In this document: piece by piece, positions 950 to 7,932 of the stretch | Position numbering within the stretch: position 1 is the first letter of the stretch | Layout of the letters: each line of letters starts with the position of its first letter | DNA from: Lachnospiraceae bacterium | Lineage (GTDB): Bacteria > Bacillota > Clostridia > Lachnospirales > Lachnospiraceae | Direction of reading: 5' to 3' | DNA: 64,000 nucleotides | NCBI GenBank assembly: GCA_024684085.1 | Contig: JAIKXM010000026.1 | Location: 1-64,000, forward strand | The notes under the pieces: model-generated | What the model was told of the DNA's origin: nothing | What the model saw: the letters and a program-made list of their open reading frames with translations, nothing else | Databases searched by the model: none | Program-made: the position numbers and the translations under genes

Positions 950-1006
950 GTTCGTGAGGGTGGTAGAACAGTAGGTTCTGGTAGAGTAGCTTCAATCATC
1001 GAGTAA
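950..1006 (+). pseudogene. 3'-end fragment of an elongation factor Tu gene
   Basis: GTT CGT GAG ... GAG TAA encodes VREGGRTVGSGRVASIIE*, matching the conserved EF-Tu C-terminus (xREGGRTVGSGxVxxIxE); an in-frame TAA precedes it, with no tuf body upstream. Confidence 0.8.
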
Positions 1007-1173: not shown

Positions 1174-1202
1174 TTGACTTTCCGCCTTACACTTACTACA
1201 AT
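1174..1202 (+). promoter_or_regulatory. Sigma-A-like promoter for the repeat RNA
   Basis: TTGACT (1174-1179), 17-nt spacer, TACAAT (1197-1202); expected start about 1209, just before the first repeat at 1214. Confidence 0.65.
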
Positions 1203-1208
1203 GAAATT

Positions 1209-1345
1209 AATAAGAAAGTATACCACTGACCGATATGTGGTATATAAATGGTCGGGTTGAAAGTTTACCGCTGACCAATATGCGGAATATAAATGATTGG
1301 GTCGAAAGTATAGTCCTTCGCCGAGAGGCGGAGGACTATTTCCGT
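1209..1345 (+). ncRNA. Tandem pseudoknot RNA, type III antitoxin-like (CptI-like), upstream of jetABCD
   Basis: Two 45-nt repeats (1214-1258, 1259-1303), a third repeat start (1304-1311), then a hairpin; P1 and P2 pairings supported by compensatory differences between units. Confidence 0.65.
1310..1342 (+). terminator. Strong GNRA-capped hairpin ending the repeat RNA
   Basis: ATAGTCCTTCGCC-GAGA-GGCGGAGGACTAT, 13-bp stem with one G-U, followed by a short T run. Confidence 0.55.
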
Positions 1346-1397
1346 AATGAGGATAGGTAATTGAAAAAAACAGGTTTTTATATTAAGGAGCAGACTA

Positions 1398-2855
1398 TTG
1401 TATCATATTATCGGTGAGAACTTCTTTGTTCCGCTTGCTTCTCCGAATAAAACTGTATATTGGGAATGTATTTGTAAGCTGTTTTCCGTTATGGATCATC
1501 AGCTTTCTTTTGGTGTTGAAAGAGATGTGCTGGTGGAGGAATTGCAGTATTACTTCGAACAGACTCAGGCCGCAGATATTAAAGAGGATGAATTGTCCGG
1601 GAAAACTGCAAGAGATAAGGCCAATTGGATGATCCGTAAGTTGGAAGCTTATGGCTGGATAGATATCGAAACCGATAAAAGCTATGTGCAGAGGGTGAAC
1701 TTCAAGGAGCACGCGGTAAAGGTGGTCAAGACCCTCTTGGAGATAACCGAAGGGAAGCGTATCGAATATCAGGGATATATCTATACCATCTATACCCTGG
1801 TCAGAACGAATACAGATAATCCCGGTGTTGTTCTTCTGTCTATCGTGGAGAACACAGATATGCTGATCACGGGCTTGAAGAATCTAAGCTCCAGTATAAA
1901 GAATTATATTGATGAGCTTACCAAGTATAGAACGCCCGCCGAGATCATGAATGTTCTGTTTAATGATTACATTGAGAATATTGTGGATAAGGCATATCAT
2001 CGTCTCCTCACTTCCGATAATGTATCTAAGTTCAGACCTGAGATAATAGAAAGGCTGGAGTCTAAGAGCAGGAGTCCTCAATATATTGAAAAAGCAAGTG
2101 AAGATCTTGCCGGAATCCGTGAGATATCCAAAGAGGATGCAAGGGAACTGGCGTATCATTATATACATCAGGTCCTGGAAGCTTTTCATAATATGGACGA
2201 TATCCTGTCCGAGATCAATTACAAGAATACACAATATCAGCGCGCGGCTATCAATCGTGCCAAATTCTATCTGATCGGCGGAGAAGATGTCAGGGGGCAG
2301 TTGAAGGAACTACTTACGGATATGAGTGATCGGATCCTTGCAGACAATATGGATCTGGCAGGTATATATCGGATTGAATATATTGATGAATTGATCCGAC
2401 TCTACAGTGTATCTGTGATCGATGAAAAATCTCTGTATACTCCAATAGAAGGTAAGAAAACATTCACGCCGTCGGCACTTATTGATGAAGATGTCGATCT
2501 GGCTCTTAGGAATGATAAATTGCAACGAATGATGGAGAAGCTAGCCAGAGTATTGAGCCCGGAGCGTGTTGGGGCATATGTGGATCAGCAGTTAGGTGAC
2601 AAAAAGCGAATGATGGCATCGCAATTGCCGCTTGATACAGTGGAGGATTATGTAAAACTGATCTATATCAGGTTATATGGGCAGCGAAAGAATATGGAGT
2701 ATTCGATCGTGCTCCACGAAGACGAAAAGGGAAAAAATGACCGGGAAAGGGTTAATGCTCCGGAGAAAGGGAATCGATTTGAATCCAACGAACAAGTAAG
2801 GCAAAAAGGGTATTATTTTCAGGACTTTGAAATAGTCAGAAAGGAAACCAAATAA
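1398..2855 (+). CDS. jetA: Wadjet JetA-like protein
   Basis: 485 aa, TTG start with AAGGAG seven nt upstream; first gene of a jetABCD-order operon with SMC-like JetC and Toprim-like JetD. Confidence 0.8.
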   Translation: MYHIIGENFFVPLASPNKTVYWECICKLFSVMDHQLSFGVERDVLVEELQYYFEQTQAADIKEDELSGKTARDKANWMIRKLEAYGWIDIETDKSYVQRVNFKEHAVKVVKTLLEITEGKRIEYQGYIYTIYTLVRTNTDNPGVVLLSIVENTDMLITGLKNLSSSIKNYIDELTKYRTPAEIMNVLFNDYIENIVDKAYHRLLTSDNVSKFRPEIIERLESKSRSPQYIEKASEDLAGIREISKEDARELAYHYIHQVLEAFHNMDDILSEINYKNTQYQRAAINRAKFYLIGGEDVRGQLKELLTDMSDRILADNMDLAGIYRIEYIDELIRLYSVSVIDEKSLYTPIEGKKTFTPSALIDEDVDLALRNDKLQRMMEKLARVLSPERVGAYVDQQLGDKKRMMASQLPLDTVEDYVKLIYIRLYGQRKNMEYSIVLHEDEKGKNDRERVNAPEKGNRFESNEQVRQKGYYFQDFEIVRKETK

Positions 2856-2857
2856 AA

Positions 2858-3472
2858 ATGGATTATTTGGAAGGTATGTTGCAGAAGGAAAAGGCGGAGT
2901 TCTCAAGAATATGTAACCGTCTCTTATCCAGCTGTTTCTTATGTAAGCGTAATGAAACGACCAAGCCGGATTATTATTTTGTGATCAAACATCGTGAGAA
3001 GTTCTCGGATTATCTATCTCTTATGGGATATCGCCTTGAGATCAATGAAGGATATGGAGTTATACAGCTTACGAATCCCATGAATTATAACAGATATAAT
3101 CTCAAGCTGTTTGAATCGATAATATTGCTGATACTTAGGATCCTCTATGATGAGAAGAGGAGAGAACTGTCGGTATCGGACGAAGTGATCGTGAATGTAG
3201 GTGATATTCACGACAAGTTTTTAAGTCTTAAGATCAGGGACAAGATGATCGACAAGACGACAATGCGTAATGCGATAAGTACATTAAGGCGCTTCCAGCT
3301 TATTGAGACATTGGATCGTGATCTGACCAATGAAGACAGCAGGATCCTCATCTTTGATTCTATCCTGATGGCAGTCAGGGTGGAAGATATCAAAAAAGCA
3401 TGCGAGAAGCTCGAAATATACCGGAAAGGAGAGAAGGAAAGTGAAGAGATTGACGAGAGTGAAATTGATTAA
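2858..3472 (+). CDS. jetB: Wadjet JetB-like protein
   Basis: 204 aa, small protein between JetA and the SMC-like ATPase; overlaps jetC by 32 nt. Confidence 0.8.
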   Translation: MDYLEGMLQKEKAEFSRICNRLLSSCFLCKRNETTKPDYYFVIKHREKFSDYLSLMGYRLEINEGYGVIQLTNPMNYNRYNLKLFESIILLILRILYDEKRRELSVSDEVIVNVGDIHDKFLSLKIRDKMIDKTTMRNAISTLRRFQLIETLDRDLTNEDSRILIFDSILMAVRVEDIKKACEKLEIYRKGEKESEEIDESEID

Positions 3473-6400
3473 CTGGCATCGTTTCACCAATACATATGTC
3501 GATTTTGAAGACTCCACTTTGATCTCCGGAGAAAACGGGGCAGGTAAGTCTACCCTTCTTGATGCAATTCAATTTGTGGTAACGTGTTCTACCAATCATT
3601 TCAATAAGGCCGCTCATGAGAACGGCAAGAGAAAGCTTACGGGTTATATCCGCTGTAAGACAGGCAAAGAGAACAGGCCTTATGAGAGAACCGGTGAGAT
3701 AAGCGCCCATGTTGCATTGGAGTTCTATGAGGAAAAGCGAGATAAGTATTTTATTGTAGGCGCTGTGGTGGATTCGGCTTCTGAGGGTCAGGAGAAGACC
3801 GTTCGATATCTGATAGACGGACAGAGACTGAATGACGATCTTTTTTTCAACGGAAAGGTGCCAAAGTCGATCAATCAGTTCCGCACTACCAATGCTAAAG
3901 AGATCCGGCAGTGGTGCAATACCGAAAAAGAAGCTAAATCTATGATGAAAAATCGATTCGGAAGACTGGAGGATAAATTCTTCCGATTGATACCGAAGGC
4001 TTTGGCATTCAGACCTATAGATGATATTAAGGATTTTGTGTATTCTTATGTTCTTGATGAAAAAGAAGTCAATATTGATGTTCTGAGGGAGAATGTGCGT
4101 ACATATCAGGATCTTCAGCGAACACTGGAAGATGTGAAGGTGCGTATAGGCAAGTTGGACAGAATATTCAAGGCACATGAATCAGTGGTTGATGGCCTGG
4201 AAAAAGATAAGATGTACGAATATTTCCTTGCACGTATTGATGCGGATCTGACTAAGGAAGAGATCAGGGGATTGGCGGATGAGATACGTGCCGATGAGAT
4301 TCGTCGGGGAGATCATAATAAGGAATTGGCGGCAGTCAGAAGAGAACAGGATGAGAAGCAACAGATCCGGGATGACATTCGAACGGAGCTGGCCGGTGAT
4401 AAGGACTTTATAGCGAGGGATGAACAGGAGAAAAAACTTAGGGAGCTTCAGCGGGATAATGAGGAACTCCTTAAGGAGAGGGAGGACCTGGAGAGAAGTG
4501 TAGCCAAGGCCAGAGAACAGGCAAGAAACCTGTTGGAGATTAAGGATATCGACGACTCAGTCCGCGTATATTATGAACAGCTGGGTGATCTTGAGAAAAA
4601 AGAGCAGCTGTCGGAAGTTAAGAATAATCTTCAGCATGTTATCACATATAAGGCGGAGAAGTGGAACCAACTGATCTTGCAGAGGCAGAAGCTCAGCGAT
4701 CAGATCAGCCTGGATGAACAGGAGAGACATGAACTGGAACTTAAGGCAGACAATCTTAAGCGAAAAAGGTTCTCTTATCCTCCCGATGTTGAACGTGTGA
4801 TGACTGCGATCAGAGATGAGTTCAATCGAATAGGGAGAACTCCCGCACCCAGAATATTATGCGAGCTTTTGGAGATTACGGATGATTCATGGCGTAATGC
4901 AGTTGAGGGATATCTGAATACTCAGCGATTCTATATTCTGGTCGAGCCGGAGAATTTTGATATCGCATTGGGTACATACGACAATTTGCGTAGGGAGAAG
5001 AAGGCTTTTGGAGTTGGTCTGATCAATACGCAGCAGTTGGATGCATATGACTCGGCGCCGGAGATGTCTCTTGCCACTGTGGTCACATCGAAGAATAAAT
5101 ATGCTAAGCGTTATATTAATATGATCCTTGGGAAGGTCACTATGTGTGACACTTATCAGGAATTGAAGAAGCATAAGACTGCCATTACCAGGGAGTGTAT
5201 GCGTTATCAAAATCATGTGGCCAGTGCCATAAAGCCTGAGATATTTGAGACTCCTTACATAGGTCAGAATGCTATAAAGGTTCAGCTGGAACAGACCAAT
5301 GTCAGGATTGCTTCATTGAAGGAACATCTGAAGGATCTGGCAGGGCGAAGCACTACTATAGATTCGGTGCTGGAGCAGCTTACAACGGAATATGATACTG
5401 ATATCAAGTATCGTATTGATGTCCTGGCAGAGCTTCGTCAGAATGTTGCCGAGATACAAAAGTGTAAAGATAATATTGCTGCACTGGAGAAGAACTCCAA
5501 TATGATCCAGAAGCAGATTCAGTTGTCCGATCTGGAGACTATTCTGAAAGAGTTGGGTATAAAAAGCAGTTCTTTTGAGCGTATGATCGGCCAGACTGAT
5601 CAGAGGATCGCTATCAATAATGAACGACTTAAGCTTAAACAGGCGGATCTGGATACATTAACGGTTAATTATCTCGAGATAGGTTCCAGGGCAGGCACAC
5701 AGAGTGTTATCTGGGATAAGGAATATGAGAAGAGATTAACAGAGCGATCCAATTCCGAGTTCAAAGATAATTATCTCAGGGCTCGTAAGGCTAATCAGAC
5801 CAAAATCGGAGATGCGGAAGCTGTAATGAAGGAGTCCATGACGGAATATAAAACGGCGCATGATTTCGGCGCGGCGGCAACTATGGAGGGTTATCCCGAT
5901 TTCGAGTGTGAATTGGTCAAATTAAAAGATTCGGAACTACTGCAGTATGAGGAGAAGGTAGAGTCTGCGAGACAGGCCGCGGAAGAAGAATTCAGAGAAC
6001 AGTTCCTGTCAAAACTTCAGGAGAATATGAAGACGGCGCAGAGTGAATTCAAGAATCTGAATAATGCGCTTCAGGATATCCTGTTCAGCAATGAGCGATA
6101 TGAATTCTTATATATGCCAAGTAAAAAGTATCGTCAGTATTATGAGATGATCATGGATGATTTTAACGCTACTCAGGGGGAGTCTATTTTCAGCGGTATT
6201 TTCCATGAGACTCATAAAGCCGTGATCGAGGAATTGTTCGAACGTCTGGCCTTGGATAATGATAATACCGCTAAGGCACTGGATGAATTCACAGATTATC
6301 GGACTTATATGGATTATGATATCCGTATTTTTCACAGTGACAATAATTATTCGCTGTATTCCAAGGTCTGTGAGGAGAAGAGCGGCGGTGAGACACAGAC

Positions 6401-6683
6401 GCCTTTCTATGTTACAGTGGCGGCCTCTTTTGTACAGCTCTATCGCAATAATATCGGCGGTGAGGCGATCGGACTCGTAATGTTCGATGAGGCCTTCAAT
6501 AATATGGATGATGAGAGGATCGGTGGAGTATTGCAGTTCCTGCGCAAGCTCCCTCTGCAGATTCTGATCGCTGCTCCGCCGGATAAGATCCAGTATATCA
6601 GTCCGGCAGTCGAGGAGACGCTTTTGGTCATGACAGATGAGAAAGTAAGTTTTGTGGAGAGATACATTAATGGCTCGATATGA
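3441..6683 (+). CDS. jetC: Wadjet JetC, SMC/MukB-like ATPase
   Basis: Walker A GENGAGKST, long coiled-coil middle, signature KSGGE, Walker B LVMFDEAFNNMD. Confidence 0.92.
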   Translation: MKRLTRVKLINWHRFTNTYVDFEDSTLISGENGAGKSTLLDAIQFVVTCSTNHFNKAAHENGKRKLTGYIRCKTGKENRPYERTGEISAHVALEFYEEKRDKYFIVGAVVDSASEGQEKTVRYLIDGQRLNDDLFFNGKVPKSINQFRTTNAKEIRQWCNTEKEAKSMMKNRFGRLEDKFFRLIPKALAFRPIDDIKDFVYSYVLDEKEVNIDVLRENVRTYQDLQRTLEDVKVRIGKLDRIFKAHESVVDGLEKDKMYEYFLARIDADLTKEEIRGLADEIRADEIRRGDHNKELAAVRREQDEKQQIRDDIRTELAGDKDFIARDEQEKKLRELQRDNEELLKEREDLERSVAKAREQARNLLEIKDIDDSVRVYYEQLGDLEKKEQLSEVKNNLQHVITYKAEKWNQLILQRQKLSDQISLDEQERHELELKADNLKRKRFSYPPDVERVMTAIRDEFNRIGRTPAPRILCELLEITDDSWRNAVEGYLNTQRFYILVEPENFDIALGTYDNLRREKKAFGVGLINTQQLDAYDSAPEMSLATVVTSKNKYAKRYINMILGKVTMCDTYQELKKHKTAITRECMRYQNHVASAIKPEIFETPYIGQNAIKVQLEQTNVRIASLKEHLKDLAGRSTTIDSVLEQLTTEYDTDIKYRIDVLAELRQNVAEIQKCKDNIAALEKNSNMIQKQIQLSDLETILKELGIKSSSFERMIGQTDQRIAINNERLKLKQADLDTLTVNYLEIGSRAGTQSVIWDKEYEKRLTERSNSEFKDNYLRARKANQTKIGDAEAVMKESMTEYKTAHDFGAAATMEGYPDFECELVKLKDSELLQYEEKVESARQAAEEEFREQFLSKLQENMKTAQSEFKNLNNALQDILFSNERYEFLYMPSKKYRQYYEMIMDDFNATQGESIFSGIFHETHKAVIEELFERLALDNDNTAKALDEFTDYRTYMDYDIRIFHSDNNYSLYSKVCEEKSGGETQTPFYVTVAASFVQLYRNNIGGEAIGLVMFDEAFNNMDDERIGGVLQFLRKLPLQILIAAPPDKIQYISPAVEETLLVMTDEKVSFVERYINGSI

Positions 6684-7932
6684 TCATATAGTCCTGAATG
6701 CATTGTTGGATTCGTATGAGAACAGCCTGCTCTCGATCGGAGAGAACAAGCGGACTGTTCATATAGATTATAATTTCACAAAGAGGAACATACCTCAGTA
6801 TTATGATGAAAGTTCACAGGAGTACGAGGCGATCCATATCTTAATGAAAAGTCTGGAAGATAAAGGCCTTGTTGAGATACTCTGGAAGAATGATATTAAG
6901 GATCATCAGATAGAAAAGATCCGGATGAGAACAGAACGGCTGAATGAAATCTATGCCGCTGTGGGAAGAATGCCGAAGAGTGAACTGGAACAGGATACTA
7001 TCCGATTGCTTGACGGATATCTGGAGCTATTGTCGGATGAAGTGAAAGAGGGAGAAGTAACGGAGAAGGTTGTATACAGGTTCGGTCGATATCTTCTATC
7101 CAGACTGAGCAGTCATCAATCAGTTAAAGAATACATTGACTTGAATAAGGCTGAGGATATTATCCGACTTCTGCATACCATTTATTGTGTGGAGCAGAAT
7201 GTAGAGGAACGTTATATCAGAGAATTCTCCGTTACGCATTTTCGGGATTCTAAATATTTCGAGGGTGTGGAGCACAAGATAACAGGCATATTCCGAAGGT
7301 TCGGTGAAGGATTCGATGATATGGAGGATGATGAGATCCTTGCTGAATACCATATATACCATACGCCGAATTATGTGTATATCAAAGGGAATGCCGGATT
7401 AAGTATAGGCCGGGAAGTGATCCGGCTGGACAGTCTGAATCAGGGCATCGGTTTATCAGGAGAGGATATTGAAAATGTACGTTTCACAGATCTGTCAATG
7501 GTTAAGAAGGTGCTTACGATCGAGAATCTTACAACTTTTTTCAGTTGGCACGAGAGCGACTGTCTTATCATTTATCTTGGAGGCTATCATAACGGTGTCA
7601 GGAGGAGGTTGTTGAACGAGATATATAAGTCTTTGCCTGATGCCGAGTATTACCACTTTGGAGACATAGATGCAGGCGGATTCTCCATTCTGAAGGATCT
7701 GAGGAATAAGACCGGGATACCTTTTCACGAATATAATATGGATCTTGATACGCTTATCGGATATGAAGAATATGGGAGGAAGCTTACCGGGAATGACAGG
7801 AAACGGTTGGAAGAGCTTGCCAGGCAGTACCCTCAGTGGGAGGAGACCATCCGGTATATGTTGGAGCATAACGTGAAGATAGAGCAGGAGTGTATAGGGG
7901 CATCGGTTGTTTTGGATTCTGCGGAGCAATAA
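6670..7932 (+). CDS. jetD: Wadjet JetD, Toprim-like (DUF2220/DUF3322-type) protein
   Basis: C-terminal YYHFGDIDAGGFSIL Toprim-like motif; overlaps jetC 3' end. Confidence 0.88.
   Translation: MARYDHIVLNALLDSYENSLLSIGENKRTVHIDYNFTKRNIPQYYDESSQEYEAIHILMKSLEDKGLVEILWKNDIKDHQIEKIRMRTERLNEIYAAVGRMPKSELEQDTIRLLDGYLELLSDEVKEGEVTEKVVYRFGRYLLSRLSSHQSVKEYIDLNKAEDIIRLLHTIYCVEQNVEERYIREFSVTHFRDSKYFEGVEHKITGIFRRFGEGFDDMEDDEILAEYHIYHTPNYVYIKGNAGLSIGREVIRLDSLNQGIGLSGEDIENVRFTDLSMVKKVLTIENLTTFFSWHESDCLIIYLGGYHNGVRRRLLNEIYKSLPDAEYYHFGDIDAGGFSILKDLRNKTGIPFHEYNMDLDTLIGYEEYGRKLTGNDRKRLEELARQYPQWEETIRYMLEHNVKIEQECIGASVVLDSAEQ

Follow-up and report, generated by a model that had tools for sequence, protein, structure and literature searches.

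The left part of the window (the whole stretch of 64,000 nucleotides analysed, from a Lachnospiraceae genome) encodes a type I Wadjet system, in which jetA, jetB, jetC and jetD are adjacent, intact and in the usual order. PADLOC models for type I Wadjet match all four genes almost end to end. Upstream of the operon lies a unit made up of a promoter, two abutting direct repeats of 45 nt each that are 82% identical, the start of a further repeat and a hairpin (Table 1). An earlier note, made from the letters alone, had described this layout, running from the promoter through repeats and hairpin to an AAGGAG motif and a TTG start codon of jetA at 1398, and all of these elements were located as it had described them; the AAGGAG is the native Shine-Dalgarno sequence of jetA. 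The arms of the hairpin occupy 1310-1322 and 1327-1339, and the segment 1304-1352 has a folding z of -4.8 against shuffled sequences. No Rfam family was found at or above its gathering score within 1174-1420.

Table 1. Features of the window locus and of three phage contigs carrying a related repeat.
Feature	Position	Strand	Description and basis
tuf (EF-Tu) 3'-end copy	953..1006	+	REGGRTVGSGRVASIIE and stop, rest of gene absent; att-like duplicate; left edge of Wadjet segment
cptI promoter	1174..1202	+	TTGACT-17-TACAAT, 11 nt before repeat 1; kept in relatives; sequence only
CptI repeat 1 (H-type pseudoknot unit)	1214..1258	+	model R1/R2 73.4/73.5 bits; covariation
CptI repeat 2	1259..1303	+	model R1/R2 69.4/66.6 bits
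Start of third, partial CptI repeat	1304..1308	+	GAAAG
Former cptI terminator hairpin	1310..1339	+	13-bp stem, GAGA loop, weakened tail ATTTCC; fold and tail comparison
cptN scar	1361..1385	+	first 8 codons (L/M KKTGFYI), TTG start replacing ATG; alignment with four intact loci
Possible leftover mini-ORF	1361..1417	+	18 codons, overruns jetA start in another frame; read from sequence
Fusion point of cptN and jetA 5' region	1384..1385	+	2-nt microhomology (TA); end of cptN homology, start of jetA homology
jetA Shine-Dalgarno	1386..1390	+	AGGAG, native to jetA (TAAGGAGCA also in L039-L041)
jetA	1398..2855	+	TTG start (TTG also in L039 and L040)
jetB	2858..3472	+	
jetC	3441..6683	+	GENGAGKST Walker A, KSGGE signature and VMFDEA Walker B in translation
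jetD	6652..7932	+	JetD_C/Toprim; GDIDAGG in translation
Phage CptI repeat	L167:14654-14694		150.8-kb contig, directly after tRNA-Asn in a tRNA cluster, adjoins SPbeta-type RNA polymerase homologue; R2 60 bits
Phage CptI repeat	L166:802-846		71-kb contig, 2.5 kb before terminase; R2 56 bits
Phage CptI repeat	L165:742-777		65.8-kb contig, near tRNA-Ser; R2 47 bits

Four more full arrays (L010-L013), in genomes of the same family and order, were recovered when 145 related genomes were searched at the DNA level. They are 86-94% identical to that of the window, and the closest known array is 6% divergent from it. Directly 3' of each of the four lies a gene for a protein of about 155 amino acids, and the one encoded at L010 (genome G032) aligns end to end with the crystallised CptN of E. 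rectale (PDB 4rmo; E=2.3e-79). Homologues of the array thus precede intact cptN genes, which upholds the proposal of the earlier note that the unit is a type III antitoxin whose toxin position is occupied by Wadjet. Covariation was examined in 69 repeats, 45 of them distinct. In the two pseudoknot stems (9-13/24-28 and 17-21/38-42), 96.5% of cells are paired and 34 double changes occur; sliding the stem partner by 1-3 columns as a control left only 21-44% of cells paired. Covariation is clearest at 12-25 (G-C in 25, A-U in 17) and 19-40 (A-U in 16, G-C in 16, G-U in 10). Because a homologous unit exists elsewhere at this level of identity, with a conserved promoter and covarying pseudoknot pairs, the repeats-hairpin unit is not a product of chance. 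Judged by sequence and predicted fold, the window repeats are true CptI antitoxin units of the CptIN family of type III toxin-antitoxin (TA) systems. The window loop AUAUAAAUG equals A27-G35 of E. rectale CptI at an offset of 2, A29 and U30 included, and both repeats retain the positions matching E. rectale G13, A29, U30, A33 and G35 (the repeat-to-crystal numbering is derived from the text of PMC4627078). In E. rectale CptI, mutation at A29 and U30 abolishes antitoxicity (PMC4627078). With these key nucleotides retained, the window CptI RNA could neutralise a CptN.

The toxin gene itself is nearly gone. In intact loci ATGAARAAAACAGGNTTTTATATTATAAAAGA... (cptN) lies 3' of the hairpin, whereas the window has TTGAAAAAAACAGGTTTTTATATTA followed by AGGAGCAGACTATTG instead. 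Homology to cptN extends up to 1385 and homology to the jetA region of L039, L040 and L041 starts at 1384, the dinucleotide TA being common to both, and about 147 codons of cptN are missing at this locus. The only part of cptN downstream of the window array is the 8-codon scar, and no other CptN sequence, its 3' half included, was found in the assembled genome, where the best match was noise (E=0.31); the genome is a single MAG, 85.7% complete, and the only carrier of the cptI-scar-jetA junction. Given the scar and the lack of CptN elsewhere in the assembly, the window unit is, as far as can be read from its sequence, an orphan cptI and not a CptIN system. The earlier note had reported no CptN/ToxN-like ORF in the window; the toxin ORF is indeed absent, but a trace of the cptN 5' end survives at 1361-1385. 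Of the three options offered there, that of an antitoxin orphaned by the loss of its toxin gains support, because the first codons of cptN persist at the expected place. The exact junction was absent from viral contigs, and positions 1174-1440 had no match in PLSDB and INPHARED.

The Pfam model PF13958 (ToxN_toxin) was tried and rejected as a test for CptN, since it fails to match CptN and searches with it are therefore uninformative about this toxin. As CptI is without an Rfam family (Rfam 15) and CptN is missed by this Pfam model, standard annotation overlooks CptIN loci. PF13958 did match a second type III toxin, ToxN, in the same genome (G000:C41:8928-9257; L003:1911-2273, - strand), in which profile positions 57-101 are missing in frame and whose leader seemingly comprises a single repeat and a hairpin. 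This ToxN is likely a damaged toxin too.

Among the 20 genomes of the genus, jetA occurs in that of the window only, Wadjet being absent from the other 19. In L040, a bare tuf tail lies about 105-150 nt upstream of jetA, with a more complete tuf 3' end beyond it (tuf sites at L040:149-204 and 2322-2418) and a consensus promoter, TTGACG-17-TATAAT, between the tail and jetA. The place between tuf tail and jetA is occupied in the window by the cptI unit and, after it, the cptN scar. No good promoter was found between the window hairpin and jetA, the only candidate being a 9/12 site that reaches past the start codon. The window and L040, L042, L043, L046, L047, L048 and L083 all have a tuf 3' end upstream of jetA, in many cases only the tail with no gene attached, and the 3' end of tuf appears to be a site at which Wadjet integrates and resides in this bacterial family. 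Further to the left, an Rfam DUF3800-XI RNA (38.2 bits) at 284-332 directly precedes a DUF3800 gene at 361-807, whose match to the domain profile leaves out the profile's central part; the two are possibly another RNA-plus-protein module in decay.

The suggestion of the earlier note that a pseudoknot RNA might be a leader proper to Wadjet was not borne out. The survey it proposed, of the regions upstream of jetA homologues for the same 45-nt repeats, yielded none in 47 loci of other genomes, whose flanking DNA was examined with model R1 and again, with the same result, with the corrected model R2. As none of these 47 jetA relatives has CptI, the array is not a conserved Wadjet leader. Homologous repeats elsewhere adjoin cptN or unrelated genes and never jetA, which is largely the pattern that the note had named as the mark of a chance junction. 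The window arrangement has the appearance of a single evolutionary accident and not of a leader that Wadjet operons normally carry.

A broader survey covered 397 genomes of the family, family searches sampling one genome per species. For CptI it used model R1 only, in which the S1 pairs were set at 9-13/22-26 and not at 24-28 and which is effective as a sequence model. CptI matched at E<=0.1 in 41 of the 397 genomes, and a CptN match was seen in 60. Besides the window, nine arrays are toxinless (L122, L143, L147, L153, L154, L155, L156, L160 and L161; in L143 only about 210 nt follow the array before the contig end). Some of them bear short traces of the cptN start, and their downstream genes vary from case to case. 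Six other arrays (L125, L128, L131, L138, L140 and L146, with L125 at a contig end) have a damaged cptN. The nine toxinless arrays, with these traces, indicate that the same process of toxin loss recurs. Decayed cptN genes behind well-kept CptI arrays were also observed in L159 (G406:C16), L162 (G262:C27), L164 (G279:C49), L158 (G369) and L163 (G275), their defects being in-frame deletions, frameshifts or truncations, with toxin decay ahead of antitoxin decay.

The arrays were also compared in their promoters and in the tract that follows the hairpin. A promoter reading TTGACT-17-TA(R)AAT, or nearly so, stands 10-13 nt (once 21) before the repeats in 18 of the 19 toxin-bearing arrays. The complete promoter, TTGACT-17-TAxxAT at 11 nt before the repeats, is retained by the window array and, among the nine other toxinless ones, by L153 alone; of the eight that lack it, L147 has a damaged form. 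The hairpin does not look like an ordinary terminator in the window, where it is followed by TTT only (ATTT, a run of 3), as opposed to runs of 4-6 T in all 19 toxin-bearing arrays, 5-6 in the six damaged ones and 4-7 in most of the toxinless ones. This U-tract is the weakest of the arrays compared, the tail 3' of the hairpin reading ATTTCC in the window and TTTTTTCC in an intact relative; a terminator scan called a terminator in L010 and L013 and none in the window or L011. No other array in the comparison combines an intact promoter and repeats with a weakened terminator, and none has jetABCD attached; this comparison is suggestive only, as it was made after viewing the data and concerns one genome.

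It is quite probable, in our estimation, that the window locus is the remnant of a CptIN system in which a deletion fused cptI to jetABCD, that the operon is now read from the cptI promoter and that CptI is most likely a passenger. In the sequence, promoter, two CptI repeats and hairpin are followed by eight codons of cptN and then by a break at 1384-1385 into the ribosome-binding region of jetA. The deletion, which probably occurred at the microhomology, would have removed most of cptN and the intervening DNA up to jetA, and it would also have taken jetA's own promoter, if one was present as in L040. The cptI promoter is now the best promoter candidate for jetABCD, and we infer, with less certainty than the deletion, that the operon is transcribed by read-through from it, across the CptI repeats and beyond what was once the terminator; a transcript leader of about 190 nt containing CptI would then precede jetA. 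The weakening of the U-tract amounts to one substitution in one genome and may reflect neutral drift. Given that no CptN was found in the assembled genome, the CptI RNA most likely has no role beyond that of a passenger; at most it would by chance shield the cell from CptN brought in from outside.

Other explanations of the junction appear much less probable. The one we rate lowest is that Wadjet inserted into cptN as an incoming element, rather than being joined to it by deletion. Its absence from the other genomes of the genus and its position beside an att-like tuf tail suggest that the operon is mobile, but this tail lies on the outer side of cptI and not at the join of cptN and jetA, and the 3' part of cptN was found neither beyond jetD nor anywhere else in the assembly; the lack of any other CptN sequence there argues for deletion. 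It is also very unlikely that the junction is an assembly artefact, with a cptI contig end wrongly joined to a jetA contig. Such an error would be consistent with a MAG built from short reads, with a junction seen nowhere else in the data examined and with its position 1384 bases from a contig end. However, the tuf 3' tail found just upstream of jetA in L040 is present in the window beyond cptI, indicating that the two flanks belong together; the break is clean, with 2 nt of microhomology and with the ribosome-binding site and start codon of jetA preserved, and the divergence of the array from its nearest known relative likewise speaks against a misjoin.

A working role for the CptI leader within the Wadjet locus, either in regulating JetABCD or as an anti-addiction antitoxin that would save cells from the freed toxin once Wadjet has destroyed a CptIN plasmid, is in our view unlikely, if less so than either of these. 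The repeats, the promoter and the nucleotides matching those of E. rectale are intact in the window, and the majority of the other toxinless arrays are without the promoter or in decay. CptIN stabilises plasmids in E. coli (PMC4627078), and Wadjet acts against plasmids. Against this, CptI precedes jetA in this one genome only, no CptIN-like match was found in PLSDB plasmids, and a recent deletion may account equally well for the preservation of both promoter and repeats. We also regard as unlikely the more specific idea that CptI, as the leader of jetABCD, would be a ready antidote when Wadjet destroys a CptIN plasmid, and that CptN, which cuts between repeats, could process the leader and so signal the presence of the plasmid. 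If Wadjet and the antidote were still produced jointly, protection against plasmid addiction would come built into a plasmid-destroying system. Fusion by deletion, with capture of the cptI promoter, would in turn represent a way for defence islands to rewire, a decaying TA locus leaving behind a promoter and an RNA antitoxin that are taken over by a neighbouring defence operon. Since it is common in this bacterial family for a type III antitoxin to persist after its toxin is lost, CptI-like repeats alone should not be annotated as a working TA system.

Exact-pattern scans of IMG/VR detected three large phage contigs (L165-L167, Table 1) that each have a single CptI repeat, retaining both pseudoknot stems, and no cptN. 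These repeats may be decoys against CptN, by analogy with the pseudo-ToxI of phage PhiTE (PMC3475682), which likewise is an antitoxin repeat without a toxin; they differ in that PhiTE mimics ToxI (36 nt) and the repeats found here mimic CptI. The earlier note had offered a decoy as another option for the window array; decoy-like CptI repeats do occur, but in phages. Decoys against CptN, if real, would be notable given that two CptIN systems tested earlier showed no anti-phage activity (PMC5086642). A 5.3-kb contig of the viral collection (L169:4779-4820, - strand) has a lone CptI repeat with promoter-like sequence 5', hairpins 3' and an adjoining HTH gene, and a 4.7-kb one (L168:2263-2340, - strand) encodes a complete CptIN with two repeats and a CptN 53% identical to that of G032. 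A partial CptI match in Streptococcus prophages lacks the second stem and was taken as chance, and no convincing CptI was found in the 4.5 kb examined of phage MT835481, a relative of L166.

In its organization the window locus resembles E. rectale CptIN (PDB 4RMO; PMC4627078), with which it shares two 45-nt repeats forming an H-type pseudoknot, a single-base loop L1 (G), the L2 loop at the same offset, and the order of promoter, repeats, hairpin and gene, CptN toxins being encoded at the loci homologous to that of the window. It differs in having an 8-codon remnant of the toxin and a weakened U-tract, followed by jetABCD. Compared with type I Wadjet, the locus has all four genes intact and in the usual order, but jetA is preceded by a CptI array in place of its own promoter region, unlike the 47 other loci. 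A further parallel is provided by the orphan antitoxins, or anti-addiction modules, of other TA types (PMC12548467), in which an antitoxin is likewise retained after toxin loss and could neutralise a related plasmid-borne toxin; the antitoxin in the window, however, is a type III RNA that probably now forms the 5' leader of a defence operon.
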